DNA of 56,431 bases from positions 1-56,431 of the forward strand of contig CALVHG010000008.1 in NCBI GenBank assembly GCA_944327285.1. Reading direction: 5' to 3'. Of the stretch, positions 1-56,431 are shown one piece after another. The notes below the pieces were generated by a model that was given only the letters and a program-made list of their open reading frames with translations, was not told where the DNA came from and did not search any database. The stretch comes from an uncultured Desulfovibrio sp. GTDB taxonomy: Bacteria > Desulfobacterota > Desulfovibrionia > Desulfovibrionales > Desulfovibrionaceae. Made by a program: the position numbers and the translations under genes. Each line of letters opens with the position of its first letter. Position 1 is the first letter of the stretch.

Positions 1-74
1 AAAACCGCGTTTTTTCCGCGAAACGACAGGCCGTATGGTTTGAAATGCACAGCATTTCAAACTGAAAATGCTCT
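1..74 (+). repeat. Family A repeat, copy A1 (cut by window edge)
   Basis: This is the right half of the family A element, beginning inside the GCGGAAAAACCGCG hairpin region. It contains the conserved string CGAAACGACAGGCCGTATGG and the terminal hairpin TTTGAAATGC-ACA-GCATTTCAAA. It ends in AAAATGCTCT followed by AG. The left half lies outside the window. Confidence 0.85.
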
Positions 75-89
75 AGAGCGTTTCACCTT
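75..89 (+). repeat. Truncated left end of a second family A element
   Basis: AGAGCGTTTCACCTT follows the end of copy A1 directly and matches the left end of full copies. The match stops after 15 bases, so it is a solo end or a deletion remnant just upstream of selD. Confidence 0.5.
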
Positions 90-120
90 AACGCCGGTTC
101 GGGCAACGCTACAGAAAAAT

Positions 121-126
121 AAGGAG
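121..126 (+). promoter_or_regulatory. Ribosome binding site that fixes the selD start
   Basis: AAGGAG lies six bases before ATG 133. The later in-frame ATG at 178 has no such site. This supports initiation upstream of the in-frame TGA at 166-168. Confidence 0.8.
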
Positions 127-132
127 TGCGGC

Positions 133-1194
133 ATGCAGCTTTTGCAGAAGGCCAAAGCCGCTGGCTGAGCGGCAAAGATGGCTCCAGGGGCCCTGGAGCA
201 GCTTTTGAGCGGTTTGTCGTCCGTTATGCCTGCGGCGCTGGAAACGCGCGTGCTGGCCGGGCGGGCCCGGAACGAAGATGCCGCCGTTGTGCGCGTGCCC
301 GCAGGCAGAGCGCTGGTGCAGACGGTGGACATCCTTGCGCCTATTGTCAACGACGCCTTTCATTTTGGCCGCATTGCCGCTGCCAACGCTCTTTCCGATG
401 TGTACGCGCTGGGGGGCGAGCCGTGGTGCGCCATGAATATTGCCTGCTTTCCGCAGGAGCTGGCCGAAAACGATCCCGAAGGCGTGCTTTCCGCAATTCT
501 GCGGGGCGGGGCGGAAGCTGCCGTGGAGGCCGGAGCCGTCATCGTGGGCGGGCATACGGTGCAGGATGACGAGCTCAAGTTCGGCCTGTCCGTCACCGGG
601 CTCATTGATCCGGAGCATATTGCGGAAAATCGCAATTTGCGTCCCGGTCTTGCGCTGGTGCTGACCAAGCCGCTGGGAACGGGGATTCTTGCCACGGGCG
701 TCAAGGCCGGCTGGGAAGGCGCCGGAGAGAGCGAGGCGGCCCTGTGCCGCTGGTGCGGGCGGCTTAATCGCTTCCCCGGCGAGGCCATCCGTCGTTTCTG
801 GCTGCCTGCCGCCACGGACGTGACCGGCTTCGGTCTGGCCGGGCATGCGTTGGAAATGGCGCTTGCGTCGGGCGTCTGCGTGGCGCTGGATATGGCGGCC
901 CTGCCGCTGCTGCCGCGCGTGCTGGACTATGCCAATGACGGTCTTATTCCGGCGGGCAGTTACAATAACCGCCGTCACTGCCTCTGCTCCCTGCGCCGGA
1001 GCGAGGGCGTGGACGACGCGCTGGAAATGGTGGCCTTTGATGCCCAGACATCGGGCGGAATGCTGCTGGCGGTTCCGCGGGATCGTCTGGAGGAAGTTCG
1101 GGCCTTCCTGCGGGAAAACGGCGATCTGGATGCCGTGGTGGGCGAAGTGCTGCCCGCGCAGGCGGACGGCGCGGCCCTCTGGCTGCGAAACTGA
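133..1194 (+). CDS. selD: Selenide, water dikinase SelD (selenoprotein with in-frame UGA)
   Basis: SelD makes selenophosphate from selenide and ATP, the selenium donor for selenocysteine and selenouridine. The open frame without a stop begins at ATG 178, but an upstream ATG at 133 has an ideal AAGGAG site and reads MQLLQKAKAAG-(TGA)-AAKMAP. The TGA falls exactly at the catalytic Cys/Sec position of SelD (Cys17 in E. coli), and the essential Lys follows at +3 (K15 here). Downstream, NEDAAV, the FGRIAAANALSDVYALGG block and VGGHTVQDDELKFGLSVTG match the ATP-binding AIRS-like fold. With Sec12 the protein is 353 aa, normal for the family. A hairpin just after the TGA fits a bacterial SECIS. The Sec reading is an inference from family alignment, RBS and hairpin; the SelD identity is firm. 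Confidence 0.93.
166..199 (+). promoter_or_regulatory. Sec codon (TGA 166-168) with putative bacterial SECIS hairpin
   Basis: The TGA at 166-168 is followed by the inverted repeat GCTCCAGGG/CCCTGGAGC at 181-199. Its apical loop is about 20-25 nt after the TGA and rich in G. Bacterial SECIS elements lie inside the coding region directly downstream of UGA with a small G-containing apical loop, so distance and shape fit. No SelB binding can be shown from sequence. Confidence 0.7.
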
Positions 1195-1236
1195 AGTCTG
1201 CCGGCAAGCAGGCATGTTGACGCTACATCGTTCTTC

Positions 1237-1395
1237 CGGGGGGAAGGAAACCCCCTTATCTCTGCTGTCGATGCCCGTAGCTTCCTTCGTCGCAACGGGC
1301 ACGGCCTGCGGCCGCCTTCGGTCGCGGCTAGCGCACAAGGGGCGTTTCCTTCCCCCCGGACCCCCCATCCTTCCCCCAACGCGCTTTTTCAGAGG
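1237..1395. repeat. Family B G-rich hairpin, copy B1, with inserted cassette
   Basis: The arms CCGGGGGGAAGGAAACCCCC (1237-1256) and AAGGGGCGTTTCCTTCCCCC (from 1337) pair around a ~78-nt loop. The loop holds the cassette TCTGCTGTCGATGCCCG...TTCGGTCG, also seen near 29.45 kb and, inverted, near 23.57 kb. The flank CCCCCCATCCTTCCCCCAAC then GCGC is the reverse of the arm flanking other B copies. The gap 1195-1665 holds only this and copy A2. Confidence 0.7.
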
Positions 1396-1491
1396 GACGC
1401 GGGGAGCATACGACAGGCCTCCTCCAGAGAATTTGCAGCATGTATGCTTTAATTGTTTGAAATAGATAGTAAATTTATGTTAACGCTTTCT

Positions 1492-1637
1492 AAGGCACTT
1501 TCAGTTTGAGTGCAAAGCATTTCAAATCATACTGCCTGTTATTTCGCGGAAAAAACGCGTTTTTTCCGCTCACTTTTGGCCGGGCGGCGCAGTGCCGCCG
1601 CCGCGCCTCTTGCCTTTTGCAAAGGCAAAATGTTTTA
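1492..1637 (-). repeat. Family A repeat, copy A2 (diverged, reverse)
   Basis: This is a reverse-orientation copy with many substitutions that keeps the order of the internal hairpins. The stem that reads GTTTCACC/GGTGAAAC in other copies is TTGCC/GGCAA here, still paired. It ends just upstream of the ribosome binding site of the first symporter gene. Confidence 0.7.
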
Positions 1638-1665
1638 TCGAGGGATAACAAGGAGTCTGGCGAGC

Positions 1666-3042
1666 ATGGGGAAAACGTCGCGTGAAGTGTTGGGGACCCG
1701 TCTGGGATTTTTGCTGCTGTCGGCCGGTTGTGCCATCGGCCTCGGCAATATCTGGCGTTTTCCCTATATTACAGGTCTGTATGGCGGCGCCGCCTTTGTC
1801 ATCATTTATCTGTGCTGTCTGCTGGCCGTAACGCCCATTCTGATTATGGAAATTGCCGTGGGACGCGCGGCCCGCTGCAATATGGGGCGCGCTCTGCGCA
1901 AGCTGGAGCCGGAGGGGACCTGGTGGCATCGCTTCGGCTGGCTGGCTCTGGTGGGCAGTTATCTGCTCATGATGTTCTACACAGTGGTGACGGGCTGGCT
2001 GCTTTCCTACTGCTGGTTTGCGCTGACCGGTCAGCTTTCCAGTCTTGACCCGGAAGGGGTGAAGAACTTCTTTTTCGGCACGCTGGCGGATGTCAAAGGG
2101 CAGGTTCTCGGCATGAGCGTTGCCGTGGGCGTAGGCTGCCTTGTCTGTTCGCTGGGCGTGCAGCGGGGGATAGAGCGGATTGTCAAGCTGATGATGGCCG
2201 GTCTGTTCCTTATTCTGATTCTGCTTGTCTTTCGTTCGCTGACCCTGCCGGGAGCGGGGGAGGGCGTTGCCTTCTATCTGGCCCCGGATTTCGGGCGACT
2301 GTTTGACAAGGGCTTTTTCAGCGCCTGCAATGCGGCCCTGAATCAGGCCTTTTTCACCATTTCCGTGGGTATCGGCTCCATGACTATTTTCGGCAGCTAT
2401 CAGCCTGACAATCGCAGTCTGGCGGGGGAGGGCGCCTGGATTGTGAGCATGGACACCTTTGTGGCCATTATGGCGGGGCTGGTGATTTTTCCCGCGTGCT
2501 TTGCTTTCGGCGTCGATGCCGGCGGCGGGCCGGGGCTTATCTTTGTGACGCTGCCCAATATCTTCAATGTGATGGATGGCGGCCGCATCTGGGGCATTTT
2601 GTTCTTCGTCTTCATGGCCTTTGCCGCCCTTTCCACGGTCATTGCTGTGTTCGAGAACATCATTTCCTACAGCATCGACGTCTGGGGCATGTCGCGCCGC
2701 GCCTCGTCCGCGCTGCACTTTGTCGGCCTGTGGCTCTGTTCGCTGCCGTGCGCGCTGGGCTTTAATGTCTGGGCCGACTTCCAGCCTCTGGGCAAGGGGA
2801 CCAGCGTGCTTGATCTGGAGGACTTTCTGATCAGCAATAACCTGCTCTTTGTGGGGACGCTGATGTTTCTTTTCTTCTGCTGCACGCGCTGGGGCTGGGG
2901 GTGGAAGAATTTTCTGGCAGAGGCCAACAAGGGGGAAGGTCTGCGTTTCCCGCACTGGCTGAAAGGGTATCTGACCTATGTTCTGCCCTGTCTGATCATC
3001 CTTGTTTTTGTCATGGGTTATGTGGAGCGCCTGAGCAAGTAA
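1666..3042 (+). CDS. Na+:neurotransmitter symporter (NSS/SNF) family transporter 1
   Basis: This is a 458-aa polytopic inner-membrane protein of the LeuT fold that would import an amino acid or amine with Na+. TM1 carries the family signature GLGNIWRFPY near residues 24-33, including the Asn of the Na1 site. TM6 has the NQAFFTISVGIGSM block, and TM8 carries AALST with the Thr-Ser pair of the Na2 site. ATG 1666 is chosen because AAGGAG lies at 1650-1655 and its N-terminus aligns residue for residue with the next gene; the open frame extends further upstream but only through a repeat. The length matches short bacterial NSS proteins with about 11 TMs. The substrate cannot be read from sequence. 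A homologous gene follows after 28 bases, so the two are probably co-transcribed. Confidence 0.92.
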   Translation: MGKTSREVLGTRLGFLLLSAGCAIGLGNIWRFPYITGLYGGAAFVIIYLCCLLAVTPILIMEIAVGRAARCNMGRALRKLEPEGTWWHRFGWLALVGSYLLMMFYTVVTGWLLSYCWFALTGQLSSLDPEGVKNFFFGTLADVKGQVLGMSVAVGVGCLVCSLGVQRGIERIVKLMMAGLFLILILLVFRSLTLPGAGEGVAFYLAPDFGRLFDKGFFSACNAALNQAFFTISVGIGSMTIFGSYQPDNRSLAGEGAWIVSMDTFVAIMAGLVIFPACFAFGVDAGGGPGLIFVTLPNIFNVMDGGRIWGILFFVFMAFAALSTVIAVFENIISYSIDVWGMSRRASSALHFVGLWLCSLPCALGFNVWADFQPLGKGTSVLDLEDFLISNNLLFVGTLMFLFFCCTRWGWGWKNFLAEANKGEGLRFPHWLKGYLTYVLPCLIILVFVMGYVERLSK

Positions 3043-3070
3043 GCCGGGCCGGAGTCTGGGAGTCGTTTTT

Positions 3071-4453
3071 ATGGCAGAGAAAAAAACGCGTGAAATGTTG
3101 AGCAGCCGTCTGGGCTTTCTGCTGCTGTCGGCGGGCTGCGCCATCGGCCTTGGCAACGTCTGGCGCTTTCCGTACATCACGGGCAATTATGGCGGAGCCA
3201 TCTTTGTCGGCATTTTTCTGATTTGTCTGCTGGCTGTTGTGCCCATCATGATCATGGAATTTGCCGTGGGGCGCGCCGCCCGGCGCAATATGGGGCTGGC
3301 CTTCGGCCGGCTGGAACCTGAGGGGACCCAGTGGCATCGTTTCGGCTGGTGGGCGCTGGTGGGCAGCTATGTGCTGATGATGTTTTATACTGTGGTGACG
3401 GGCTGGATGCTCCTTTACTGCTGGTATACGGCATCTGGCGCGTTGAGCGGGCTGCAACCGGCGCAGGTGGGAGCCTTTTTCGGCGAGGTGCTTGGAAGCG
3501 CCGGAACGCAGGTGCTGGGCATGACGCTGGTGGTGCTCATTGGCTCCGGCATCTGCGCCATGGGCGTGCAGAAGGGCGTGGAGCGCGTGGTCAAGCTCAT
3601 GATGGTCGGCCTTGTGCTCATCCTGCTGGTGCTGGTGGTGCGCGCCCTGCTTTTGCCCGGCGCCATGGAAGGCGTGCGCTTCTATCTTGTGCCTGACGTG
3701 GATCGCTTCCTGGAAAAGGGCGTGTTCAACGTCATCAGCGCGGCTATGAACCAGTCCTTTTTCTGTCTGTCTGTGGGCATTGGCGCCATGACCATTTTCG
3801 GCAGCTATCAGAGCAAGGAGCGCGCCCTGACTGGCGAAGCTCTCTGGATTACGCTGTTTAATACGCTGGTGGGCATTTTCGCCGGTCTGATTATCTTTCC
3901 CGCCTGCTTCTCGTTCGGTGTGTCGCCCAATTCCGGCCCCGGTCTTGTGTTCGTGACCCTGCCTAATATTTTCAACAACATGTTCCTCGGCCGGCTGTGG
4001 GGAACGCTGTTCTTCATCCTGATGGCCTTTGCGGCGCTGTCCACCGTCATCGCCGTGTTCGAGAACATCATTTCCTACAGCGTGGACGTCTGGGGCATGC
4101 CGCGCCGCCGGGCCGTGGTGCTGCACCTGATCGGCCTCTGGGTGCTTTCCCTGCCGTGCGCGCTGGGCTTCAATATCTGGTCCGACTTCCAGCCCTTCGG
4201 GGCGGGCACGTCGGTGCTGGATCTTGAAGACTTTATCATCAGCAATCATATGCTGCCGCTGGGCGGTCTGTTCTTCCTGCTGTTCTGTTGCATTCGCTAC
4301 GGCTGGGGCTGGGACAAGTTCATTGCGGAAACGGATACCGGCGAAGGCATGAAGTTTCCGGCCTGGCTGCGGCCGTATCTGACCTATATTCTGCCTCTGG
4401 TGATTCTCTTCCTGTTTGTCATGGGCTACGTGGATCGCTTCGGCGGCAAGTAG
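3071..4453 (+). CDS. Na+:neurotransmitter symporter (NSS/SNF) family transporter 2
   Basis: This 460-aa paralogue of the preceding gene has the same TM1 signature GLGNVWRFPY, the same TM6 block (NQSFFCLSVGIGAM) and the same TM8 FAALSTVIAVFENIISYSVD stretch. Most of the chain is alignable, so the pair reflects tandem duplication. A GGGAG site sits at 3058-3062 ahead of ATG 3071. The differences concentrate in the extracellular loop after TM3 (GALSGLQPAQVGAFF here, QLSSLDPEGVKNFFF in the first). The two may differ in specificity or affinity, or could act as a pair; this is inference. Transcription probably continues from transporter 1. Confidence 0.92.
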   Translation: MAEKKTREMLSSRLGFLLLSAGCAIGLGNVWRFPYITGNYGGAIFVGIFLICLLAVVPIMIMEFAVGRAARRNMGLAFGRLEPEGTQWHRFGWWALVGSYVLMMFYTVVTGWMLLYCWYTASGALSGLQPAQVGAFFGEVLGSAGTQVLGMTLVVLIGSGICAMGVQKGVERVVKLMMVGLVLILLVLVVRALLLPGAMEGVRFYLVPDVDRFLEKGVFNVISAAMNQSFFCLSVGIGAMTIFGSYQSKERALTGEALWITLFNTLVGIFAGLIIFPACFSFGVSPNSGPGLVFVTLPNIFNNMFLGRLWGTLFFILMAFAALSTVIAVFENIISYSVDVWGMPRRRAVVLHLIGLWVLSLPCALGFNIWSDFQPFGAGTSVLDLEDFIISNHMLPLGGLFFLLFCCIRYGWGWDKFIAETDTGEGMKFPAWLRPYLTYILPLVILFLFVMGYVDRFGGK

Positions 4454-4652
4454 GCTTTCGCTTCGGAGGGTCTGCCCGGAAAGAATGTTTTCCGGGCGGA
4501 CCGGAAGTGGAAAAAGGCTGGACCGTCCCCTGGCGATCGCTCCGGCGCTGCCTGCAGAAAGGCCGTGTGCCGTCCTTGAGGCTTGCCCTTCTTACCGGCT
4601 CAAGGCATACTGGCCCTGCTTTGCGGTAAAATTCGCCTTACAAGGAGAAATC

Positions 4653-5297: not shown

Positions 5298-5408
5298 ATT
5301 CGCATGATGACGCGGGAAAAAAGTTTTCTTTTCCCGCTGTCCGCAAGAGAGGGGCAGGAGCAATGGCTTGCGCGGCTCCCGCTCTTTTGCTAATCTGCGC
5401 CACAGTCT

Positions 5409-5492
5409 GCGAGAGTGGCGGAATTGGTAGACGCACTGGACTTAGAATCCAGCGGCCTGGCCATGCGGGTTCAAGTCCCGCCTCTCGCACCA
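5409..5492 (+). tRNA. tRNA-Leu (anticodon UAG)
   Basis: Acceptor arms GCGAGAG and CTCTCGC pair and are followed by discriminator A and encoded CCA. The D arm carries GAATTGGTAGACGC. The anticodon stem is CTGGA/TCCAG with loop CTTAGAA, giving TAG at 5443-5445. There is a long variable arm typical of class II tRNAs, and the T arm is GCGGG-TTCAAGT-CCCGC. It reads CUA/CUG leucine codons. Confidence 0.97.
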
Positions 5493-5508
5493 GTCCGCAT
5501 TTGAAAGG

Positions 5509-5541
5509 GCGGTCACGTTCCCGAGAACGTGGCCGCTTTTT
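5509..5541 (+). terminator. Intrinsic terminator after tRNA-Leu
   Basis: A 12-bp stem GCGGTCACGTTC/GAACGTGGCCGC with a CCGA loop is followed by five T residues, starting 17 bases after the tRNA CCA. Confidence 0.9.
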
Positions 5542-5580
5542 GTTTTCACACAGGGGGAAGCCATTTCTTTTTTGTCGGCT

Positions 5581-5706
5581 AGAGCCTTTCACCTTTGAAA
5601 AGGGTGAAACGCGAGGCGGCGGCACAGCGCCGCCCGGCCCAAAGTGAGCGGAAAAAACCGCATTTTTTCCGCGAAACGATAGGCAGTGATATTGAAATTC
5701 ATTTTC
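5581..5706 (+). repeat. Family A repeat, copy A3
   Basis: The left end AGAGCCTTTCACC is preceded by CT, and the GC-rich hairpin and GCGGAAAAAACCGC hairpin are present. The right terminal hairpin is degraded (GATATTGAAATTCATTTTC). It lies between the tRNA terminator and chemoreceptor 1. Confidence 0.75.
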
Positions 5707-5746
5707 TATTATGGTAAGGGAAAGCATTCTTCATACAGGAGGCGGT

Positions 5747-8156: not shown

Positions 8157-8240
8157 TAAAGCGCGTTTGGGGAAGGGGTGGGGGGCAGGGGGAGGGGGAA
8201 CCCCTTTGCGCGCTAGCAAAAGGGGTTCCCCCTCCCCCTG
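8157..8240. repeat. Family B G-rich hairpin, copy B2
   Basis: The flank AAAGCGCGTTTGGGGAAGGG precedes a near-perfect palindrome at 8186-8240. Its arms are CAGGGGGAGGGGGAACCCC and GGGGTTCCCCCTCCCCCTG around TTTGCGCGCTAGCAAAA. Confidence 0.75.
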
Positions 8241-8266
8241 TAACCTGACCTCTCGTCTTCAAAATT

Positions 8267-8412
8267 AGAGCATTTTCAGTTTGAAATGCTTCGCATTTCA
8301 AACCATACGGCCTGTCGTTTCGCGGAAAAAACGCGGTTTTTCCGCTCACTTTGGGCCGGGCGGCGCTGTGCCGCCGCCTCGCGTTTCACCTTTTTCAAAG
8401 GTGAAACGCTCT
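8267..8412 (-). repeat. Family A repeat, copy A5 (full length, reverse)
   Basis: This is a complete 146-bp copy. The plus strand starts AGAGCATTTTCAGTTTGAAA and ends AAGGTGAAACGCTCT. The stop codon of chemoreceptor 2 (minus strand, 8411-8413) overlaps its end. Confidence 0.9.
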
Positions 8413-10502
8413 AGCCCCGGCGCATCTGTTCCACCAGGGCGCTCAGCTCCTTTGCCTGCTGCGCCAGTTCGGCAATGGCCTGAGCGGATTCGTTCAGGGT
8501 TTGCGCCATGCTGGCGGCCGTCAGATTGACCTCGTTGATGGAACGGTTGATTTCGTCGCTGGCGGCGGACTGTTCCTGACTGGCGGTGGCAATGGCGCTG
8601 ACTTCGTCGGCCGTATTGTCGGCATCCTGAACAATGGCTTCCAGCGCCGCGCCGGCCTGCGTCGAGTATTCCGTTGCCTGCTGAATTTCATTCACCGTGG
8701 TGTCAACAGCCGTCATGCTCTTGCGCATGCTGGACTGGATGGCCTGAACGGCGCCGCTGACTTCACTGGTGGAAGCCATCGTTTTTTCGGCCAGCTTGCG
8801 GACTTCGTCGGCAACGACAGCAAAGCCGCGTCCGGCCTCGCCGGCTCTTGCGGCTTCAATAGCCGCATTAAGCGCCAGCAGATTGGTCTGATCCGCAATA
8901 TCGGAGATAACGCCCATGACCTGCGTGATGGATGTCGCGTGCCGATTCAGCTCGCCCATATCCTCTTTCAGGGCCAGAGACGCGGAGTGCATGCGCCGGG
9001 TGCTTTCCAGCGAGGCGGTAACAATATCCTTGCCGGCGTTAGCCTGCTGCCGCGTTCCCGCCGAAGTCTGGGAAGCATCGGAGGCATTGCGGGCTACTTC
9101 CTGCACTGTGGCCGTCATCTCGTTCATGGCGGTAGCGGCTTCGCTCAGGCGTGTTGCCGCATCGCCGGCATTTTTGCTGACCTGATCAATCTGCGCGGAC
9201 AGGCGGCTGGAAGCGGACGACAGGGCGTTGACAATACCTTCAAGCTGTTCGGCAGCTGTCAGAATGCCGATACGTTTGGCTTCCTCCGCTTCCTTGCGGG
9301 CCTTGTCGGCAGTTTCTACGGCCTGCCGGGCAATATCGGTCTGCTTACGGGCTTCGTCTGTCTGCTGCTGCGAGGTGGAAAGCAGATCCCGCAGATGGGA
9401 AACCATGCGCGAAAGCGCGTCGTGCAGTTGCCGCAGCTCGCCATAAAGGCGCGTCGTATGGGGCCGGGCCTCCAGATCGCCGGTGGCGACATCGTCGGCA
9501 TAGCGGACAAGGGCCTTCAGGGGCGAGCTGATGGACGTTGCCAGAAGCAGGCCGAGAATGACCATAAGGGCCGTTACCGAAAGGCTGACAATGGCAATGA
9601 TGCGGATGGCGGACATGGTGGGCGCGAAGATTTCGTTTTCGTCTTCGGCGTAGAGGATTTTCCAGCCGTAGGCGGTGGTGTGCGACGTTACCTTGACGAA
9701 GTGATCGCCGTTGGGAACCGTATGCACGCCGTCCGGCTGGCGCATGACGTCTTCCAGCCCGGCATCCTTAAATTCCTTGCCGAGGAACTTCCCTTCATCA
9801 GAAGGCGAAAGGGGGGAGCAGAGAATGCGCCCTGTGTTTTCGATCAGCAGAAAACGCCCGGATCTGCCCAGCTGCATGGAGCTGATAAGCCGCGACAGAT
9901 CCTCAAGAGACAGGTCTACGCACAGGATGCCGGTTATCTTGCCTGCCGCATCCCGCAATTTGCAGGTGATGCTGGTAACATAGATGTTCTTAATATTGCG
10001 GTACACGGTGCTGAGGCCCAAATCTGAAGCGTTCTTCATGGCTTCGAGATACCAGGCGCGCTTGGACATATCCCGGTGGGCAGGCACGTTGACGGTTTCC
10101 AGCGAGGTGGCATAGCTGCCGTCCGCATAGCCTATGAATATCTGGGAATAGTCCTTGTTGACCGCAACCATGCGGACGAGATGTTCGGTAATGGCGCGCT
10201 TCGGGGGAGAGATCGGCATGCCGATAGAGGGTATCGCTGTTTTCATCCCGGAAGTTGCGGAACTTACCCAGACCGCCAATGATTTCCGGGATGCGACCAA
10301 GATCGGCGGCGTTGTTCTGCGTCATGGAGATCAGCTTGCCGATGTAAGCATCGACAAGTTTGAGCGCCTGCGTGCTCTTGGTGGTAAAATCCTCGATAGC
10401 GGTATCCCGCATTTTGAGGATGGTTATTGCGCCTGTGCAGATGCTGAGGATCAGTAGCGGACCGATGATCCCCAGTAAAATACGGGCTTTTATGCTGCCC
10501 AT
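8411..10502 (-). pseudogene. Methyl-accepting chemotaxis protein 2, single-base frameshift
   Basis: The N-terminal part (from ATG 10502, TM1 ILLGIIGPLLILSICTGAI) and the rest lie in different frames. The break is at a run of five G on the plus strand (10203-10207). Removing one base restores [14 protein letters not shown] and gives about 696 aa, close to chemoreceptor 3 (694 aa). The repaired protein has a dCache-type periplasmic domain ([40 protein letters not shown]), TM2 near [20 protein letters not shown], a HAMP region and the signalling tip [25 protein letters not shown] precedes the start. The stop TAG is formed at the boundary with repeat A5. Sequencing error, decay and phase variation are all possible. 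The intact downstream frame argues that any lesion is recent. Confidence 0.88.
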
Positions 10503-14770: not shown

Positions 14771-14908
14771 CTCGCCTTCCCCGGCTCCTGTTGCGATTAT
14801 TCGCACAGGGCGGCGCGTCCCGCCGTTTCTTTCATCGTGTCTTCCCCCTGTTTCCGCTTTTTGTGCGGCAACGCACGGACAGCAAGGAATTTTTACCGCA
14901 AGCTGCTT

Positions 14909-15054
14909 AGGGCGTGTTAGCTTTGAAAAAGGTAACACGCGAGGCGGCGGCGTAGCGCCGTCCGGCCAGAAGAGAGCGGAAAAACCGCGTTTTTTCCGCG
15001 AAACGACAGGCCGTGTGGTTTGAAATACGAAGCGCTTCAAACTGAAAATGCTCT
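14909..15054 (+). repeat. Family A repeat, copy A6
   Basis: This is a full 146-bp copy whose left end reads AGGGCGTGTTAGC, resembling the family C end. The partner arm changed to GGTAACAC, so the first stem is kept by compensatory changes. It ends GAAAATGCTCT. The rest of the gap 14771-15124 shows no gene. Confidence 0.88.
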
Positions 15055-15124
15055 AAAATGCCCGCGGGGTGTTTTGTGAAATGGGTCCGGGCACTCTGTG
15101 TCCGCAGTTAAGGAGAGTGTGGCC

Positions 15125-16584: not shown

Positions 16585-16656
16585 TTTGGGGGAGGAGGGG
16601 GGCGCAGGGGGGAGGAACCACCTTTTTGCCGCAAGCAAAAGGGGGTTCCTCCCCCC
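16585..16656. repeat. Family B G-rich hairpin, copy B4
   Basis: A G-rich arm (TTTTGGGGGAGGAGGGGGGC) precedes a near-perfect hairpin. The left arm at 16607-16629 (GGGGGGAGGAACC) pairs with 16635-16656 (GGTTCCTCCCCCC). It lies just past the livF stop. Confidence 0.75.
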
Positions 16657-16673
16657 GCACTTCCCGTACTCTC

Positions 16674-23436: not shown

Positions 23437-23634
23437 AAAGCGCGTTGGGGGAAGGATGGGGGGACTGGGGGGAAGGAAACGCCCCTTGCGCGCTAGCCAA
23501 GGGGGTTTCCTTCCCCCCAGTAACACAGCTAGCCGCGACCGAATGGCGGCCGCAGGCCGTGTCCGTTAGGCGACGCAGGAGCCTTACGGGCATCGACAGC
23601 AGAGATAAGGGGAGGCCTTCCCCCCAGACAACTT
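23437..23634. repeat. Family B G-rich hairpin, copy B6, followed by the inverted cassette
   Basis: The flank AAAGCGCGTTGGGGGAAGG leads into a hairpin at 23465-23520 (arms CTGGGGGGAAGGAAAC and GTTTCCTTCCCCCCAG). Next comes the ~70-nt cassette in inverted orientation (23537-23612, CGACCGAATGGCGGCC...CAGCAGAGATA) and a last GGAGGCCTTCCCCCCAG. The gap 23239-23644 has no gene. Confidence 0.72.
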
Positions 23635-28636: not shown

Positions 28637-29260
28637 ATGAACGTACTGTTGATTAACGGAAGTCCGCATCCTCGTGGATGCACCTATACGGCATTGTCGG
28701 AAATTGCCGGACGCCTGCACGCCGCCGGTATTGAAACCACGCTGGTGCAGGTGGGACATAAGGCCGTTCGCGGCTGTATTGCCTGCGGCAAGTGCGCCGA
28801 AACCGGCCTGTGCGTTTTTCGGGATGACCCGGTGAACGAATGCATCGAGCTGCTGCGTAAGGCCGACGGTTTGATTGTCGGCTCTCCGACGTATTATGCG
28901 GGGCCTAATGCGACCTTGTGCGCTCTGCTGGACCGCGTTTTTTATATGAAGTCCGCTCCCTATGCCTTCAAGCCCGCGGCGGCGGTGGTGACCTGTCGGC
29001 GCGGCGGCGCCAGCGCCAACTTTGATCGCCTGAATAAGTATTTTACCATTGCCCGTATGCCCGTTGTCGCCTCGCAGTACTGGAATTCGCTGCATGGCAA
29101 TACGGCGGAAGAGGCCCGGCTGGATGCCGAGGGGCTGCAAATCATGCGGACGCTGGGCGATAATATGGCCTGGCTGCTTAAGTGTATCGAAGCCGGGAAG
29201 GCCGCGGGCATTCCGCTGCCCGCCGTGGAGCCGTGGACGCCTACGAACTTCATCCGCTAG
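28637..29260 (+). CDS. Iron-sulfur flavoprotein / NADPH-dependent FMN reductase family
   Basis: This is a 207-aa flavodoxin-fold protein. The N-terminal phosphate loop INGSPHPRGCTYTAL binds FMN. A compact cysteine motif C47-x2-C50-x2-C53-x5-C59 (GCIACGKCAETGLC) is characteristic of iron-sulfur flavoproteins that hold a [4Fe-4S] cluster near the flavin. GSPTYYAGPNATLCALLDRVF is the second FMN contact region. Such proteins carry out electron transfer or reduction of quinones or oxygen species in anaerobes; the partner is unknown. AGGAGG lies at 28626-28631 before ATG 28637. The stop TAG at 28 bases before 29288 lies in the CTAG where repeat A7 begins (29258-29260). Confidence 0.88.
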   Translation: MNVLLINGSPHPRGCTYTALSEIAGRLHAAGIETTLVQVGHKAVRGCIACGKCAETGLCVFRDDPVNECIELLRKADGLIVGSPTYYAGPNATLCALLDRVFYMKSAPYAFKPAAAVVTCRRGGASANFDRLNKYFTIARMPVVASQYWNSLHGNTAEEARLDAEGLQIMRTLGDNMAWLLKCIEAGKAAGIPLPAVEPWTPTNFIR

Positions 29261-29404
29261 AGCGTTTCACCTTTGAAAAAGGAGAAACGCGAGGCGGCGG
29301 CACAGCGCCGCCCGGCCCAAAGTGAGCGGAAAAACCGCGCTTTTTCCGCGAAACGACAGGCCGTATGGTTTGAAATGCGAAGCATTTCAAACTGAAAATG
29401 CTCT
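29259..29404 (+). repeat. Family A repeat, copy A7 (full length)
   Basis: A consensus-like 146-bp copy, flanked by CTAG on both sides: AGAGCGTTTCACCTTTGAAA at the left and GAAAATGCTCT at the right. The stop codon of the flavoprotein gene falls in the left flank. Confidence 0.93.
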
Positions 29405-29432
29405 AGAGCGCGCTGCAACTATTCGTAGAATG

Positions 29433-29553
29433 TCGGGGGAAGGGAAAACCCTCATCTCTGCTGTCGATGCCCGTAGCTTCCTTCGTCGCAACGGGCACGG
29501 CCTGCGGCCGCCATTCGGTCGCTGCCAGCACGAGAGGGGACCCTTCCCCCCGA
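29433..29553. repeat. Family B G-rich hairpin, copy B7, with inserted cassette
   Basis: The arms TCGGGGGAAGGGAAAACCC and GGGGACCCTTCCCCCCGA enclose the cassette ATCTCTGCTGTCGATGCCCG...CGGCCGCCATTCGGTCGC (29454-29521). It lies between two direct A copies. The whole gap 29261-29711 is repeat DNA. Confidence 0.72.
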
Positions 29554-29566
29554 AAGAATGTTTTTT

Positions 29567-29713
29567 AGAGCGTTTCAACTTTGAAAAAGATGAAACGCGA
29601 AGGCGGCGGCACAGCGCCGCCCGGCCCAAAGTGAGCGGAAAAACTGCGTTTTTTCCGCGAAACGACAGGCCGTATGGTTTGAGATGCGAAGCATTTCAAA
29701 CTGAAAATGCTCT
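29567..29713 (+). repeat. Family A repeat, copy A8 (full length)
   Basis: A full copy in the same orientation as A7, preceded by TT and followed by AG. Its right end overlaps the stop codon (29712-29714) of the minus-strand diguanylate cyclase gene. Confidence 0.93.
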
Positions 29714-31261
29714 AGACGGGGGAGGGCAGAATGGAGACGCCGTTACGGATGACGTAGCAGTTGCGTCCTTTGTTTTTGGCTTCGTAAAGAGCCTGGTCGG
29801 CAAGTTCGTAATAGCACTGGTAGCGGCATTCCCCCTGCGTTTCCACAATGACGCCGATACTGCATTCGATGTGCAGCCCGTCCGTATCGCTTGCGGCAAG
29901 ATTGCGCTGGAAAATTTTCAGACGGCGCTCCAGTTCCGCCATGCCCGGATAGTGCGGCAGGAAGAAGGCGAACTCGTCTCCGCCGAGACGCCCTACCGAA
30001 GCGGGCGAGGGAAAGCAGTCCCGCAGGATTGAGCCCAGCTTTTGAAGAATGGCATCGCCGACCAGATGGCCGCGGGTATCGTTGATTTCTTTGAAATGAT
30101 CCATGTCCACCAGCCCGAAGACGCAGGGAGGGACAGGATAGGTACGCGGACAGAGATCCGGCCTGCCGGGCATGCCTGTTTTGCCGGGGCAGCGTCCATG
30201 ATCGATGCAGTAGGACCCGCAGGCCAGTTCCACGGCTGCCTGAAAGCCGCTGCGATTCAGCGTGCCGGTCAGAGCGTCGTAAAGGGCCTTATGCTGGAGG
30301 GCGAGGCGCTCTTTTGTTTCCGTATCAATGTCGGTGATGCTGCCCACAATGCAGGCGCCGCCTTTGTCATCCACAAGATTACAGGCCTGAATGCGGCACC
30401 AGAGAGGGGTGTCGTCTCCGCGCAGCAGCCGGACTTCGATGTCCGCCTTTTCTGTTCCCTGCGTCAGTGTTTGAAACAGCTCCCGCAGTTTCTGCCTGTC
30501 CTCTTCGTGCGTTTGGGCACAGAGCGCTTCCTGCGGCGTGCTTATGGTCGCGGGCGGAGGACAGTCAAAGACCGTGCGCCAGAGTGAGGAGTAGGCGGCG
30601 CGGTTCTGGTCGATGCTGCATTCAAAAGAACGGCATTGGCCAGATTGGCCATGACTCCTGTGCGCTGCTCTTTATAGGCCAGCGTGGAGATGGTGCGGCG
30701 ATTGAGCAGAAGGCCGTAAAAGATGAGCGCGCCTACGGAGATACCGAGAGCGCCGAAAAGCAGAGCCGCCCGGATTTTTGTTTCCTGAAGGGAGGTTGAG
30801 CTGTCGAAAAGGGTGCAGTCTCCGGCAAGCAGCGTGGCCACACAGCGATTTTCGGCGTCGTCTTGCGCGGCCTTGCTGCCGGAGACAGGGATGGCGGACG
30901 CGGCTGTTTTGCCCTGGCCGGACTGCTCCATATGCGCGTCGAGCATTTGCAGCAGACATGCGGGATCGACGCGCACGAAAGAACGGCCGTCAGCGGTGGT
31001 TTCTGTGTCGCGAGGGGGCGTCAGGTGGCCGCAGGGGCGGATGCCTGTTTCCTGCGGCACCAGAATGTCGCCGAGGTTGCCGGCCCACTCATGGAGATTC
31101 CGGCAGATCTGACGCATGCTTTCGACCCGGCTTGTCTCGAAGATCGCGAGATTCCGCGTCCGCTGACTGACATAAAAGGCATACAGCAGATAGCAGAAAA
31201 TGAGCCATGCCAGCGGCAGGAGACAGACGGCACGGGATTTCAGGAGGGATCGCGCTGACAT
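29712..31261 (-). pseudogene. PAS-GGDEF diguanylate cyclase, single-base frameshift
   Basis: Two frames together encode one protein of about 516 aa. From ATG 31261 comes a TM anchor (CLLPLAWLIFCYLLYAFYV), a periplasmic part and a second TM (ALLFGALGISVGALIFYGLL). A PAS domain follows, reading DDTPLWCRIQACNLVDDKG and IVGSITDIDTETKERL. The GGDEF domain has HKALYDALTGTLNR and GRLGGDEFAFFL, so the catalytic motif is intact. The break is at an AAAA run on the plus strand (30624-30627); one additional base would join ANAVL to FECSIDQNRAAYSSLW. It would make c-di-GMP if repaired. Its start overlaps the end of the upstream EAL gene by 22 bases, so the two are co-transcribed. Error, decay or slippage cannot be told apart here. 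Confidence 0.85.
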
Positions 31262-34273: not shown

Positions 34274-34347
34274 GGCCCGGCGGAGGGGAGCTTGCCTTTC
34301 CCCGGACAAGGGCGCACAATCCGGCACTCATACGCGTCTGATATCCT

Positions 34348-34492
34348 AAAGTGTTTTACCTTTGAAAAAGGGAAAACGCGAGGCGGCGGCCAGCGCCGCC
34401 CGGCCGGAAGTGAGCGGAAAAGCCGCGTTTTTTCCGCGAAACGACAGGCCGTATGCTTTGAAGCGCGCAGCGTTTCAGACTAGAAATGCTCT
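34348..34492 (+). repeat. Family A repeat, copy A9
   Basis: The left end is AAAGTGTTTTACCTTTG. The terminal hairpin is TGAAGCGC-GCA-GCGTTTCA, so the loop-proximal pairs changed from the AT/GC form of A7 but still pair. It ends GAAATGCTCT, 21 bases before queD. Confidence 0.85.
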
Positions 34493-34513
34493 ATCAGAAC
34501 AAGGAGCGAAACA

Positions 34514-35691: not shown

Positions 35692-35699
35692 GCGCTTCT

Positions 35700-35822
35700 A
35701 GAGCATTTTTAGTTTGAAATGCTTCGCATTTCAAACCATACGGCCTGTCGTTTCGCGGAAAAAGCGCGGTTTTTCCGCTCCCTTTTGGCCGGGCGGCGCT
35801 GTGCCGCCGCCTTCGCGTTTGC
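35700..35822 (-). repeat. Family A repeat, copy A10 (reverse, one end lost)
   Basis: It starts AGAGCATTTTTAGTTTGAAA and keeps the terminal, GCGG and GC-rich hairpins. The stem with GTTTCACC is replaced by TTTGCCTGTCCTGCGG, so the left end is gone. It lies in the gap between queE and the TraT-like gene. Confidence 0.82.
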
Positions 35823-35841
35823 CTGTCCTGCGGAAGGGGCG

Positions 35842-36462
35842 TTATTCCTCTTTGCCCTGCGCGTCGGCCACTTCCAGAGGACGACAGATTTCCTGCGCCA
35901 GTCGGTCAGCCACGGAAGTTTCCACAAGGGGGCTGCGTTCGACATGCGGCAGAATGACGCCCAGGCGGAGACGGCTGTCTGCCAGCGCGTTGCGCCGGGT
36001 GATGCTGCGCATGGCGTTGGAACGCGCCCGGTTGGGGGTGGGCACAGTGCGCTCCACAAGCAGGGCGTCGGCCACGATGACAACGCTGTCCTTGCCCTGG
36101 AGCTGCACGGGGCTGTCAAATCCGGCGTTGATGGCGGCGCGGGCCGCGTCGGCGTTGCATTCGCCTGCGGCCACAATATTGACGTGCAGAATATGGCCCG
36201 CCTTGCTGGGACTTTCGATAACCTCAAAGCCTGCGCCGGTCAGGCGGCGGACAATGGCGTCGCGGAGGGCAGGGGCCGGTTTGTGCGCGTCGCGGGCGTC
36301 CACATAAACGGTTTTGGCAACGCCGGGCCCGCCCTGGGCTTCCAGCGAACCGGCCTGGACAATTTGCATGGTCGGCGGCGTGTGCGTGCGTATGCAGGCG
36401 CTGCATAGGACGCCCAGCAAAAGCACGGCCCAGCCGAGAGATGCGCGGAATGGTTTTATCAT
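35842..36462 (-). CDS. TraT-like lipoprotein 1
   Basis: This 206-aa putative outer-membrane lipoprotein has a signal peptide WAVLLLGVLCSAC with C23 as the likely lipidated residue. The region KTVYVDARD...LRDAIVRRLTGAGFEVIESPSKAGHILHVNIV resembles the N-terminal part of TraT (complement resistance and surface exclusion). The central glycine zipper of TraT is missing here. VADALLVERT matches the following part. ATG 36462 has AAGGAG; the reading frame extends upstream without similarity. It follows the second TraT-like gene after 73 bases on the same strand. The function in a chromosome without visible conjugation genes is unclear; envelope protection is a guess. Confidence 0.68.
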   Translation of the reverse strand: MIKPFRASLGWAVLLLGVLCSACIRTHTPPTMQIVQAGSLEAQGGPGVAKTVYVDARDAHKPAPALRDAIVRRLTGAGFEVIESPSKAGHILHVNIVAAGECNADAARAAINAGFDSPVQLQGKDSVVIVADALLVERTVPTPNRARSNAMRSITRRNALADSRLRLGVILPHVERSPLVETSVADRLAQEICRPLEVADAQGKEE

Positions 36463-48010: not shown

Positions 48011-48052
48011 GTTGTTGCGGGTGCGTCAAGAGTCTCCTTACGATACAGATTT

Positions 48053-48198
48053 AGAGCATTTTCAGTTTGAAATGCTCCGCATTGCAAACCATACGGCCTG
48101 TCGTTTCGCGGAAAAAGCGCGGTTTTTCCGCGAAACGACAGGCCGGGGGCGCAGGGCCGCCGCCTCGCGTTTTACCTTTTTCAAAGCTAAAACGCTCT
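48053..48198 (-). repeat. Family A repeat, copy A11 (full length, reverse)
   Basis: It starts AGAGCATTTTCAGTTTGAAA and ends AAAACGCTCT. In this copy the central part is rearranged: GTCGTTTCGCGGAAAAA is followed by its own complement TTTTTCCGCGAAACGAC, giving a longer perfect hairpin. Confidence 0.88.
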
Positions 48199-48442
48199 AA
48201 ACGAGTTCAAGTAATAGTATATAATTTTTATAAAGATATTTTACGCAGTGTAGACTTTTTTATGAAATAGGCAAAAGGAATTTAAGACTGTTTTTTGTCT
48301 GTTGTAGTGAAATCAAATTCTTGCGGATTTCCCTCTGCGCCTGTCGTTCTTTTGTCCAATGCGGGCGCTCTTGTCCTTTTTGCATCGCTGCGGGCAGGCT
48401 GTCGGCCTTTACAGAGCCTTTGGGAGAGGCTATCATAAATGC

Positions 48443-50594: not shown

Positions 50595-50615
50595 CACCCC
50601 CCTGTTTTCGTGACT

Positions 50616-50672
50616 CCGGCAGAGGACGCACGCCCCGTGCGGTGGGGCGCGTCCTCTGCCGGTTATCTTTTT
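50616..50672 (+). terminator. Intrinsic terminator of tig
   Basis: CCGGCAGAGGACGC pairs with GCGTCCTCTGCCGG, the loop carries a further GCCCC/GGGGC pairing, and CTTTTT follows. Confidence 0.92.
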
Positions 50673-50746
50673 AAGGCGCGTCGTTGTCGGTAAACGGCTT
50701 GCGCCTTTTTCAAGCAATGCGTATATTTCCCGCAGCTCGACGGGCT

Positions 50747-50887
50747 AAAGCGTTGTGCCTTTGAAAAAGGCGCGCGCGAGGCGGCGCAGCGCCGCCCGGC
50801 CAGAAGCGAGCGGAAAAACCGCGTTTTTCCGCGAAACGACAGGCCGTATGCTTTGAAACGCGCAGCGTTTCAAACTGAATATGTTCT
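50747..50887 (+). repeat. Family A repeat, copy A12
   Basis: The left end is AAAGCGTTGTGCCTTTG. The terminal hairpin TTTGAAACGC-GCA-GCGTTTCAAA shows a compensated A-T to G-C change relative to A7. It ends ATGTTCT. It lies between the tig terminator and clpP. Confidence 0.85.
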
Positions 50888-50978
50888 ACGGATCGCGCGG
50901 TTCCGCACGGAGCGGTCGCCGCATGCGCGCCGTGGGCATTCCGTCGTCGGCGTTTCTTACGCAAGGAGTGACGCTTCT

Positions 50979-51581: not shown

Positions 51582-51584
51582 ATC

Positions 51585-52850: not shown

Positions 52851-52905
52851 AGCATTTTCAGTTGAAACGCTCCGTGTTGCGCCTTTTTCAACGGTAAAAC
52901 GCTCT
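52849..52905. repeat. Shortened family A derivative, copy A13
   Basis: It starts AGAGCATTTTCAGTTGAAAC and ends GTAAAACGCTCT. The internal ~90 bases are missing. The clpX stop (52848-52850) overlaps its first bases. Confidence 0.75.
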
Positions 52906-52999
52906 AGGGCGTGTTAACACAAAATTACAATGTATCTCAGATAAATAGAGCATGCCAGCGCGCATGCCCCGGAAGAACAATTGAGTGCTAACACGCTCT
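52906..52999. repeat. Family C repeat, copy C1
   Basis: The ends AGGGCGTGTTAACAC and GTGCTAACACGCTCT are inverted repeats agreeing at 13 of 15 positions. The interior is AT-rich with ATTACAATGTATCTCAGATA. It abuts A13 directly. Confidence 0.72.
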
Positions 53000-53114
53000 G
53001 GGTGCCAGACTCGTCAGACGTTGCCGCCGTGCGCGGCGGGTATGCCGAGCTTTCCTGTCGCCCGGATTCTGCGGATATGTGTCGCACGGTTTTCTGGATC
53101 GTATGACCTTCACG

Positions 53115-53162
53115 AGGGGAGGGGGGCCTTTCCGTCAGGGAAAGAGGTTCCCTCCCCTTTTT
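53115..53162 (+). terminator. Terminator-like G/C-rich hairpin in the lon leader (B8)
   Basis: AGGGGAGGG pairs with CCCTCCCC, with an inner CTTTCC/GGGAAAG pairing, and is followed by TTTTTC. It ends 43 bases before lon. It may end readthrough from clpX or attenuate lon; sequence type resembles family B. Confidence 0.6.
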
Positions 53163-53204
53163 CAAAAACGATACGGCGGCCTCCGTCCGCCTTCGAGGAT
53201 TCTT

Positions 53205-55637: not shown

Positions 55638-55692
55638 GTTGCAGCCCTGAGGCTGAGCCGAAACAAATAAGAAGCGGTTTGAGATAACCGCC

Positions 55693-55746
55693 CCGCCCGC
55701 GCAGAATGGAAGTATGGTTTTCCGTCCTGCGCGGGCGGCGTCGTTT
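55693..55746 (+). terminator. Intrinsic terminator after lon
   Basis: CCGCCCGCGCAG pairs with CTGCGCGGGCGG and an inner GGAA/TTCC pairing; GTTTTT follows. Confidence 0.9.
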
Positions 55747-55750
55747 TTCG

Positions 55751-55850
55751 GGTGAAACGCGAGGCGGCGGCCCTGCGCCGCCCGGCCCGAAGCGAGCGGA
55801 AAACCGCGTTTTTTCCGTGAAACGACAGGCCGGTTTGAAGCGCGCAGCAA
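55751..55850 (+). repeat. Family A repeat, copy A14 (diverged, ends lost)
   Basis: It contains GTGAAACGCGAGGCGGCGG, the GCGGAAAACCGCG hairpin and GAAACGACAGGCCG. The right terminal hairpin is broken (GGTTTGAAGCGCGCAGCAAA). Confidence 0.72.
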
Positions 55851-55880
55851 ATGTCTGGGCTCAGGACTTATTACGCTTTT

Positions 55881-55960
55881 TTGAGGGGGAAGAAACCCCT
55901 TTTGCTCGCGGCAAAAAGGGGGTTCTTCCCCCTCAAACTCCCCCATCTTCCCCAAAACCC
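55881..55960. repeat. Family B G-rich hairpin, copy B9
   Basis: TTGAGGGGGAAGAAACCCC pairs with GGGGGTTCTTCCCCCTCAA around TTTTGCTCGCGGCAAAAA, and the arm ACTCCCCCATCTTCCCC follows. The region 55638-56431 contains no gene, only the lon terminator and repeats. Confidence 0.75.
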
Positions 55961-56072
55961 GCACATAATATACTGGCAGGTAAAGATAGATGTATCTATA
56001 GCATAAAGTTATATTTTATTTTTTGCATATTATCCCGCAGAAAAACAGCTCTTGATAATAAGTCCTGACCCT

Positions 56073-56218
56073 AGAGCGTTTCACCTTTGAAAAAGGTGAA
56101 ACGCGAGGCGACAGCACAGCGCCGCCCGGCCAAAAGTGAGCGGAAAAACCGCGTTTTTTCCGCGAAACGACAGGCCGTATGGTTTGAAGCGCGCAGCGTT
56201 TCAAACTAAAAATGCTCT
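56073..56218 (+). repeat. Family A repeat, copy A15 (full length)
   Basis: A complete 146-bp copy flanked by CTAG on both sides, starting AGAGCGTTTCACCTTTGAAA and ending AAAATGCTCT. The first stem is perfect; the terminal stem uses AAGCGC-GCA-GCGTTT. Confidence 0.93.
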
Positions 56219-56284
56219 AGGGCCTGTTAATATAAATTTTACAAATGATTTCAATAGATAAGATAAATAGGCTGTGCACGCGCC
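56219..56284. repeat. Family C repeat, copy C2 (partial)
   Basis: AGGGCCTGTTAATATAAATT is followed by an interior alignable to C1, with ATAGATAAGATAAATAGGCT against CAGATAAATAGAGC. It abuts A15 directly, as C1 abuts A13. The far end is not clear. Confidence 0.6.
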
Positions 56285-56333
56285 ACTTGTCTTTGGTGGC
56301 GGGGTCGCCTCGTATTCTTGACTTTTTCCCGAT

Positions 56334-56431
56334 AAAAGCGCGCTGGGGAAGGGATGGGGGGCTTGGGGGGAAGGGCCCAGCCTTTTCGCAGCGAAGCGAG
56401 AAAAGGCGTTCTCGTAGTCCTCTCGCGCCAG
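56334..56431. repeat. Family B G-rich element, copy B10 (cut by window end)
   Basis: The arm AAAAGCGCGCTGGGGAAGGG and GATGGGGGGCTTGGGGGG match the flank and left arm of B2 and B6. The loop CTTTTCGCAGCGAAGCGAGAAAAG is itself a hairpin. The rest is beyond the window. Confidence 0.6.

Follow-up and report, generated by a model that had tools for sequence, protein, structure and literature searches.

Family A repeats were located in the window, i.e. the whole stretch of 56,431 nt from an uncultured Desulfovibrio sp. analysed here, and throughout the genome to which it belongs (G000); genomes G022 and G020 served as sister-species comparisons. A 20-base core of the repeat was matched 10 times in the window with ≤3 mismatches (mean 0.01 in shuffled sequences), and a covariance model (R1) placed family A copies at 13 sites. 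The preliminary description, made from the letters of the window, had reported an abundant intergenic repeat with at least 12 copies and a fixed order of parts, and both statements were borne out by the window DNA.

Full copies were present at 8266..8413 (−, 188.6 bits with R1, near-consensus), 14908..15055 (+, 157.6 bits), 29258..29405 (+, 184.9 bits, common to G020 by alignment), 29566..29714 (+, 171.5 bits), 34347..34493 (+, 150.9 bits), 48052..48199 (−, 148.8 bits), 50746..50888 (+, 148.9 bits) and 56072..56219 (+, 176.7 bits). In the copy at 48052..48199 the third hairpin was lengthened into a long perfect palindrome, exact over 48098–48141. The remaining sites comprised a copy cut by the left edge of the window (1..75, +, 88.8 bits, model positions 74–148), two copies whose orthologous sites were also filled in G022 (1491..1637, −, 137.2 bits, and a shortened form at 5580..5705, +, 114.7 bits), a copy with its left end lost (35699..35844, −, 137.3 bits), which was missing from G022 and G020 with a boundary that was not clean, and a diverged copy (55737..55880, +, 68.7 bits). 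The arm changes named earlier were found in the DNA as described: GTGTTA/TAACAC at 14908–15055 (copy A6), TTGCC/GGCAA at 1491–1637 (copy A2) and ACGC/GCGT at 50746–50888.

Two of the full copies provide a gene with its stop codon. The left-end TAG of the copy at 8266..8413 forms the stop codon of the gene at 8411–10300 (−), and the TAG of the copy at 29258..29405 supplies that of the gene ending at 29260 (both by ORF ends). The 8266..8413 site was empty in G020, and G022 aligned across it without a copy; at 34347..34493 the flanks joined with one TA aligned across the site in both G022 and G020, which are therefore empty there.

Family A was not confined to the window, as 545 core matches with ≤2 mismatches were found in the 3.33 Mb genome (reversed-pattern control, 0), and the repeats made up about 3 % of the sampled DNA. 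Merging of hits per strand gave 198 and merging regardless of strand 189; the difference of about nine may reflect palindromic copies matched a second time on the other strand. Rfam 15 fitted the earlier failure to recognise a named family, tRNA alone reaching the gathering score in the window; none of its families did so at three loci from other lineages, which gave six sub-threshold matches. No paper retrieved by searches of open-licence PMC literature described, in its title or abstract opening, such a repeat in Desulfovibrio.

Target site, ends and partner element

The repeat measures 148 bp counting both TAs and 144 bp between the duplicated TAs, which is too small for a transposase gene, and carries terminal inverted repeats (TAGAGC left, GCTCTA right). 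Uninterrupted paralogous sites held one TA and the filled site two. TA was present at both ends of 68 of the 118 full copies, and YTAR fitted 50 of these 68 against a background of 8.7 %. CTAG was rejected as the target, since it accounted for only 13 of the 68, and a TG or CA duplication was rejected because neither stood at both ends in any of the 118 copies. At one relative site (L148) TG may have been duplicated, as it appears to flank the copy left and right and to stand at the empty site. A presence/absence script run on 30 sites called 14 empty, eight filled and eight unclear, with at least one of the ‘empty’ calls being wrong; clean alignments, with gaps of 144–151 bases, were obtained at eight of 14 presence/absence sites that were tried.

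The same genome contains an IS630 element of 993 bp (L031:1396–2388) with an intact DDE_3 transposase of 322 aa, the first 21 bases of which element are identical to family A. No match to this transposase was found in several MITE-rich genomes. Judged by comparison of sequences, both the mobility of family A and its target are established, and its mobiliser, acting in trans, is probably an IS630-family transposase with specificity for TAGAGC-type ends. Family A is almost certainly an IS630/Tc1-mariner-type MITE, recognisable as such together with its partner IS, which the preliminary description had missed.

Nezha of cyanobacteria is also an IS630/Tc1-mariner MITE. ISY100, of the same superfamily, is described as a cut-and-paste element that duplicates a TA target (PMC2170065), and family A resembles ISY100-type elements in its TA duplication, DDE_3 partner and short inverted ends; unlike IS630/Tc1-mariner MITEs, however, it has several covarying inner hairpins that recur across genera. 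The Correia elements of Neisseria are described as small, high-copy intergenic MITEs whose transcripts can be cut by RNase III (PMC10969869); family A is likewise a small, intergenic, high-copy MITE, but differs in host and sequence. ERIC sequences, given in the same source as intergenic with hundreds of copies and up to 711 in one genome (PMC10969869), share these two properties with family A, which occurs in other hosts. REP/BIME sequences are also high-copy intergenic palindromes, whereas family A is 148 bp long, against 20–40 bp stated for REPs (PMC3733652), and has terminal repeats and the TA duplication. A larger mobile unit was considered at a locus common to genomes G038 and G065, where L376 and L377 have common blocks of 5.7 and 1.7 kb (94–95 %), and was rejected, the element being merely at a synteny break.

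Hairpin architecture and covariation

The chain consists of the end hairpin H1, H2, H3 within an outer stem (H5/H5b) and the end hairpin H4, in an order fixed between source lineages. H1 is formed by the terminal repeat and its inverted copy, and H4 by the inverted copy and the terminal repeat; the internal-loop sides of the outer stem are mostly GA (or AA) and GAA. Of 247 genomes from the bacterial family, 37 contained relatives whose hairpins stand in the same order but whose arms are very different, although the outer stem was absent from G017/G055-type lineages. Counts of copies per genome were capped at 39, 150 or 12 in separate scans. This stem, which encloses the third hairpin, had been overlooked in the preliminary description, and the ‘conserved core’ proposed there proved to be partly paired, GGCCG with CGGCC and AC with GT, around that hairpin. 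Doubly changed cells in the outer stem exceeded shuffles in alignments A1 (12 vs 2.7 ± 1.4) and A3 (56 vs 20.0 ± 3.3), whereas the number of its pairs with double changes was not above shuffles in either alignment, nor were its pair types in A3.

Between lineages, doubly changed cells numbered 67 in A1 (19.8 ± 4.1 shuffled, 8.9 ± 4.8 tree-aware) and 304 in alignment A2 (75.9 ± 7.2 shuffled, 44.2 ± 11.1 tree-aware). The covariation was therefore not lost once phylogeny was counted, although the percentage of paired cells in A1 (91.3 %) did not go beyond that of the tree-aware null (85.0 ± 3.6, at most 93.5). It is very likely that the hairpin architecture has been conserved between lineages beyond shared descent. 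The hairpin chain was kept in sister species though most paired letters had changed, which suggests that the folded shape may matter. The earlier proposal of selection for a fold was partly supported: paired changes are real across lineages and the double changes exceed the phylogeny-aware null, whereas use of the fold, as single-stranded DNA or RNA, is a hypothesis.

The paired changes reported earlier were strong between lineages, whereas within G000 the double (Watson–Crick) changes fell mostly at three polymorphic subfamily pairs (49, 36 and 52). One-sided changes far outnumbered two-sided ones in the GC-rich hairpin (131 vs 4) and in the GCGGAAAAA hairpin (113 vs 5) of this genome. Within-genome covariation was dropped as proof of selection, since one-sided changes were mostly uncompensated and three pairs carried most of the double changes.

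Rare variants in G000 gave G-U (47) and A-C (58) mismatches equally often; among common variants the ratio was 225 : 132, and unpaired sites leaned alike (347 : 215). In A1, G-U : A-C was 58 : 42 (p = 0.13). In A3, collected with a sense-strand covariance model that is biased to G-U there, it was 103 : 57 (distant rows, 33 : 10), whereas the same loci under an opposite-strand model gave 79 : 86 as read (distant rows, 21 : 26). The wobble-pair statistics gave no confirmation of RNA. Pair loss per divergence was equal in sense and antisense copies (p = 0.89).

Orientation of copies and origin of the paired arms

Copies avoided genes (called with a hexamer script), and the TAG stop of a neighbouring gene was often supplied by the copy. 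Among 172 placed elements, 36 gene ends lay at stops; this is close to the stop share of non-genic YTAR sites (145/745), so stops appear to be tolerated, not sought, and targeting of stop codons was rejected. At tandem genes 80 of 114 copies faced in sense; the corresponding figure for other species, a partly dependent replicate that includes copies orthologous to those of G000, was 36 of 50 (together 116/164). The sense : antisense ratio was 15 : 15 in copies with <5 % divergence and 69 : 14 in older ones (p = 0.0011, with the 5 % cut set after a first look at the data); other species alone gave p = 0.14.

We moderately favour a combined explanation, in which an IS630-type MITE has a fold that acts in read-through RNA and template switching partly matches its arms. 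Insertion would take place at YTAR sites, seemingly without orientation preference. As the inward reading from either end is TA-G, a stop codon of either form, TAA or TAG, would be TAG after insertion, making gene ends harmless targets. Going by the counts, intragenic insertions would be lost and, over time, so would those opposing transcription. Read-through RNA from the upstream gene would form a stable fold at its 3′ end, by which the insertion is rendered tolerable or useful, and template switching during DNA replication would help to hold the arms matched. That RNA is the main form in which the fold acts is a tentative proposal, somewhat short of probable: a role in transcript tails, suggested earlier, fits the orientation bias, but rare G-U and A-C variants were equally frequent. 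The other role suggested earlier, folded single-stranded DNA in transposition, is not expected of a transposase type described as cutting and pasting with TA duplication (PMC2170065).

A functionless fold, with arms co-changed by mutation alone through the template switching that corrects quasi-palindromes during DNA replication, is rather unlikely as the full account. DNA template switching has been proposed as a source of RNA stems and paired changes (PMC8794818), and here Watson–Crick pairs dominate, with G-U at about 4 % of A1 cells; exact extended palindromes occur at five sites in G000 and one each in G022 and G020 (none in G041 and G044); and at the common G065/G038 locus, where the right flank is nearly identical, the two arms of H4 were substituted jointly, with concerted changes in three pairs of H3. 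Template switching alone, however, does not explain why many lineages have one hairpin order, why GA/GAA loop sides recur and why orientation depends on age, and most single changes in G000 were uncorrected.

The orientation bias could instead be caused by a promoter directed outwards from the right end (TTGAAA, 17–18 bases, RAAAAT), which would help the downstream gene, or harm in the opposite direction, with the fold irrelevant there; we consider this unlikely. Best sense scores of 9–9.5 were obtained for the G000, G002, G034, G025 and G007 forms (reached by 6–14 of 200 shuffles), but these related forms are non-independent and consensus matches are not promoters; the putative promoter was weak or absent in the G017, G055, G076, G038, g36 and g4 forms (35–126 of 200), and an antisense site in G055 scored as well (10 of 200). 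An improbable reading makes H1 and H4 duplex palindromes that double the transposase binding site, with arms co-changing with the transposase: one arm of each is the inner stretch of a terminal repeat resembling IS ends, and the form of the MITE ends changes with that of the IS ends from species to species, yet co-change also affects H2, H3 and the outer stem, none of which is part of the terminal repeats. That family A is immobile, being instead an RNA gene or regulatory repeat of the host, is very hard to credit, for although low-copy relatives without clear TAGAGC ends in G007, G065, G076 and G038 mean that an immobile form may exist, it is opposed by the duplicated TA, the preference for YTAR, the partner IS and the sites filled in one genome and empty in another.

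Under the favoured explanation of a MITE with a fold acting in read-through RNA, family A might, though this is doubtful, represent a Desulfovibrionaceae transposon family with a structured-RNA cargo (H3 in the covarying outer stem with its purine-rich internal loops, flanked by hairpins that double the terminal repeats) whose RNA is functional and of which mainly the sense-facing copies persist. The element offers one architecture with different letters in many lineages and one genome with hundreds of copies of graded age, which makes it testable whether MITE hairpins owe their persistence to selection at the RNA level, to selection at the DNA level or merely to template switching. The target and the first base of the element, by making stop codons harmless insertion sites, may provide a cheap route to several hundred copies. 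If the RNA reading is true, the RNA would be made by read-through from neighbouring genes, hundreds of copies would join host transcript ends, and their jobs would be to protect or process 3′ ends or to shield the insertion.

Copy number, ends and target sites

The covariance model of family A (R1) placed copies at 13 sites in the window, consistent with the preliminary description, which had recognized at least twelve long copies; the core CGAAACGACAGGCCGTATGG gave 10 matches there (≤3 mismatches). The repeat was not confined to the window, as 545 core matches (≤2 mismatches) were found in the source genome G000 (3.33 Mb, 179 contigs) versus none for the reversed control. A profile search of 806,326 bases (the window and 40 stretches, for the most part the largest contigs) gave 205 matches, which were merged per strand into 198 elements covering 25,050 bases (3.1 %); merging without strand gave 189 elements, or approximately 780 per genome by simple scaling. 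Median divergence from the consensus was 6.8 % (109 near-full copies). The window (1–75) and contigs C6, C12 and C15 (first 150 bases) all start in or near copies, as if the assembly had broken at the repeat.

The ends read TA-GAGCGTTTCACC on the left and TGAAAATGCTC-TA on the right. TA was present at both ends in 68 of 118 full flanked copies, of which 50 fitted the preferred target YTAR; the background share among NTAN sites of this DNA was 8.7 %. Where one copy lay inside another repeat family, two TAs were present in the filled form and one in uninterrupted copies. Presence/absence alignments of 14 sites were clean at eight (gaps 144–151 bases), unclear at four and without a partner at two; the gap at 8266–8413 was 146 bases, and the empty site in G020 had CA at the expected TA position. 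A script assessed 30 copies whose flanks could both be located in a relative and called 14 empty, eight filled and eight unclear; one of the empty calls was wrong (29258, a copy that G020 has), and some of the flanks fell within other repeats. Amongst 25 copies inspected from other lineages, 24 started with TAGAGC and 13 ended with exact CTCTA, the remainder with variants.

Other repeats were also present. A second family with G-rich hairpins (GGGGAAGG...CCTTCCCC) occurred at 8169–8244, 16588–16663, 23449–23524 and 55885–55932, and a repeat resembling its general kind was interrupted by a family A copy at locus L073 of G000. A third repeat (1239–1316 and 29435–29512) showed 95 % identity over 78 bases. 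Long direct repeats at 1671–3011 and 3079–4419, 1408 bases apart and 69–79 % identical, are probably a tandem gene duplication. A tRNA-Leu gene (5409–5492) lies near the copy at 5580.

Genes were called with a custom hexamer script (632 genes, 82 % coding). The 198 elements lay between tandem (114), convergent (44) or divergent (14) genes, with two inside genes, 20 near stretch ends and four without two neighbours. YTAR sites outside elements numbered 600 intergenic, 691 genic and 145 at stop codons, so insertions in genes were strongly missing. Elements were faced by 202 gene ends; 36 of these terminated in the first bases of the element, 35 of them by TAG. TAG was the commonest stop of script-called genes in the window and L037–L076 (251 TAG, 188 TGA, 170 TAA), at least 35 being supplied by element ends.

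Partner element and distribution among relatives

G000 encodes two DDE_3 proteins, one of them within a 993-bp element (L031:1396–2388) with ends TAGAGCGTTTCACCTTTGAAATG (left) and TAGAGCAATTCAACTTTGAGATG (right); its 322-aa product matched DDE_3 at 1.6e-33. TAGAGC-type ends were found near related transposase genes at seven of eight other loci inspected. Family A is well supported as an IS630-type MITE. A 90 % match to the partner transposase exists in Candidatus Desulfovibrio intestinigallinarum; within the genus, probably Desulfovibrio, 26 of 79 genomes yielded the protein. The same search gave no match in MITE-carrying G020, G044, G063, G072, G073 and G075, nor in G017, G054, G055, G058 and G070, which may reflect a different partner, or an IS missing from the genome or from its assembly.

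Within the genus, 13 of 61 genomes had the core pattern, at high copy in five (G000 545, G022 423, G020 350, G041 149 and G044 146), and R1 matched 37 of 79 (E ≤ 1e-5). A deeper R1 search of 19 of those 37 gave 133 matches in G002, 73 in G017, 67 in G025, 62 in G070 and 53 in G034. At E ≤ 1e-6, matches within the bacterial family came from 37 of 247 genomes, belonging to nine of 44 genera. The best copies in genus g42 (L266 and L267; G237 and G255) scored 182 bits, nearly as high as the best copy in the window (188.6), which suggests likely transfer between genera. At L356–L365 (G007, G065, G038 and G076), relatives sharing the architecture occurred in low copy and had no clear TAGAGC ends; some occupied sites orthologous between two species and had arms changed in pairs. 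A literature search of partial coverage found no description of family A. In the portion searched of a review on MITEs of prokaryotes from 2024 (PMC10969869), 'desulfo' was absent, ERIC was given up to 711 copies per genome and RNase III cleavage was reported for Correia elements.

Fold and covariation

Three sequences folded much more stably than their shuffles (z = −8.0, −8.2 and −10.5). The core region had been taken as unpaired; in the G000 and G002 forms, the predicted structure instead has an outer stem there, CGGCC/GGCCG (CGCGC/GCGCG in G007), with a 2-bp step (GT/AC, GC/GC or AT/AT). The enclosed third hairpin (H3) was flanked by GA or AA in 15 of 19 rows and by GAA in 15 of 19. Doubly changed cells support the outer stem in between-lineage alignments A1 (12 versus 2.7 ± 1.4 in shuffles) and A3 (56 versus 20.0 ± 3.3); the number of covarying pairs (A1, A3) and the pair types (A3) did not exceed shuffles. 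Forms in G017 and G055 lack the outer stem, and G017 has an additional hairpin; we infer that they are homologous to family A rather than parallel.

Arms had been proposed to change together between copies, and this held across lineages but much less within G000. There covariation was limited: changes were mostly one-sided in the GC-rich hairpin H2 (131 versus four two-sided) and in H3 (113 versus five), and double changes in end hairpins H1 and H4 fell mainly at pairs 11–27, 12–26 and 119–127. Between lineages it was strong, the H3 arms being GCGGAAAAA/TTTTTCCGC in G000, GCGTCCAGA/TCTGGACGC in G002 and GCAGGAAAG/CTTTCCTGC in G038. A1 (40 rows, aligned without structure) contained 67 doubly changed cells, compared with 19.8 ± 4.1 in shuffles and 8.9 ± 4.8 (maximum 24) in 200 tree simulations, and 11 of 40 pairs reached p ≤ 0.01; its paired-cell percentage (91.3) lay inside the tree-simulation null (maximum 93.5). 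A2 (46 distinct rows from distant lineages), whose model-fitted alignment is biased towards the model, contained 304, versus 75.9 ± 7.2 shuffled and 44.2 ± 11.1 tree-simulated. Both nulls on doubly changed cells thus support conservation of the architecture beyond descent.

RNA, template switching and orientation

Selection on sense RNA predicts more G-U than A-C. In G000, rare variants gave 47 G-U versus 58 A-C and common variants 225 versus 132, unpaired sites leaning likewise (347 versus 215); A1 gave 58 versus 42 (p = 0.13). The ratio was 103:57 with a sense-built model and 79:86 with an antisense-built model on its own strand (33:10 and 21:26, respectively, in distant rows), and a weak sense-strand excess may remain. 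The sense RNA fold was more stable than the antisense in 84 of 111 copies, a difference already present in the consensus (−75.4 versus −71.7 kcal/mol). Pairs were lost at equal rates in both orientations (p = 0.89), so post-insertion selection on the fold was not seen.

Template switching, which can make arms change together and is proposed in PMC8794818 as a source of paired changes in RNA stems, is a live alternative. It is favoured by the extended palindrome CTGTCGTTTCGCGGAAAAA...TTTTTCCGCGAAACGACAG, exact at five sites in G000 and one each in G022 and G020 (none in G041 or G044), and by a locus common to G065 and G038, almost unchanged in its right flank, where both H4 arms were replaced jointly.

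In tandem gaps, 80 of 114 copies in G000 faced with the genes (p = 2e-5), as did 36 of the 50 tandem copies from stretches of G022, G044, G020 and G041 (p = 0.0026). Where neighbours opposed the regional gene direction, 23 of 37 copies faced with the neighbours (p = 0.19), and non-tandem copies showed no agreement with regional direction (28/58). Orientation agreed with the sign of GC skew in non-tandem copies (35/51, p = 0.011) and weakly in all copies (92/152, p = 0.012), so a replication effect is still conceivable. With a 5 % divergence cut set after a first look at the data, with:against ratios in G000 were 11:12 below the cut and 42:9 in older copies (p = 0.0045); the other species alone gave 4:3 and 27:5 (p = 0.14), and all species summed 15:15 and 69:14 (p = 0.0011).

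Our preferred, unproven reading is that the fold acts as RNA. The strongest objection is the missing G-U signature and the best support the age-dependent orientation, whereby family A would insert blind to orientation and copies facing against transcription would be lost afterwards.
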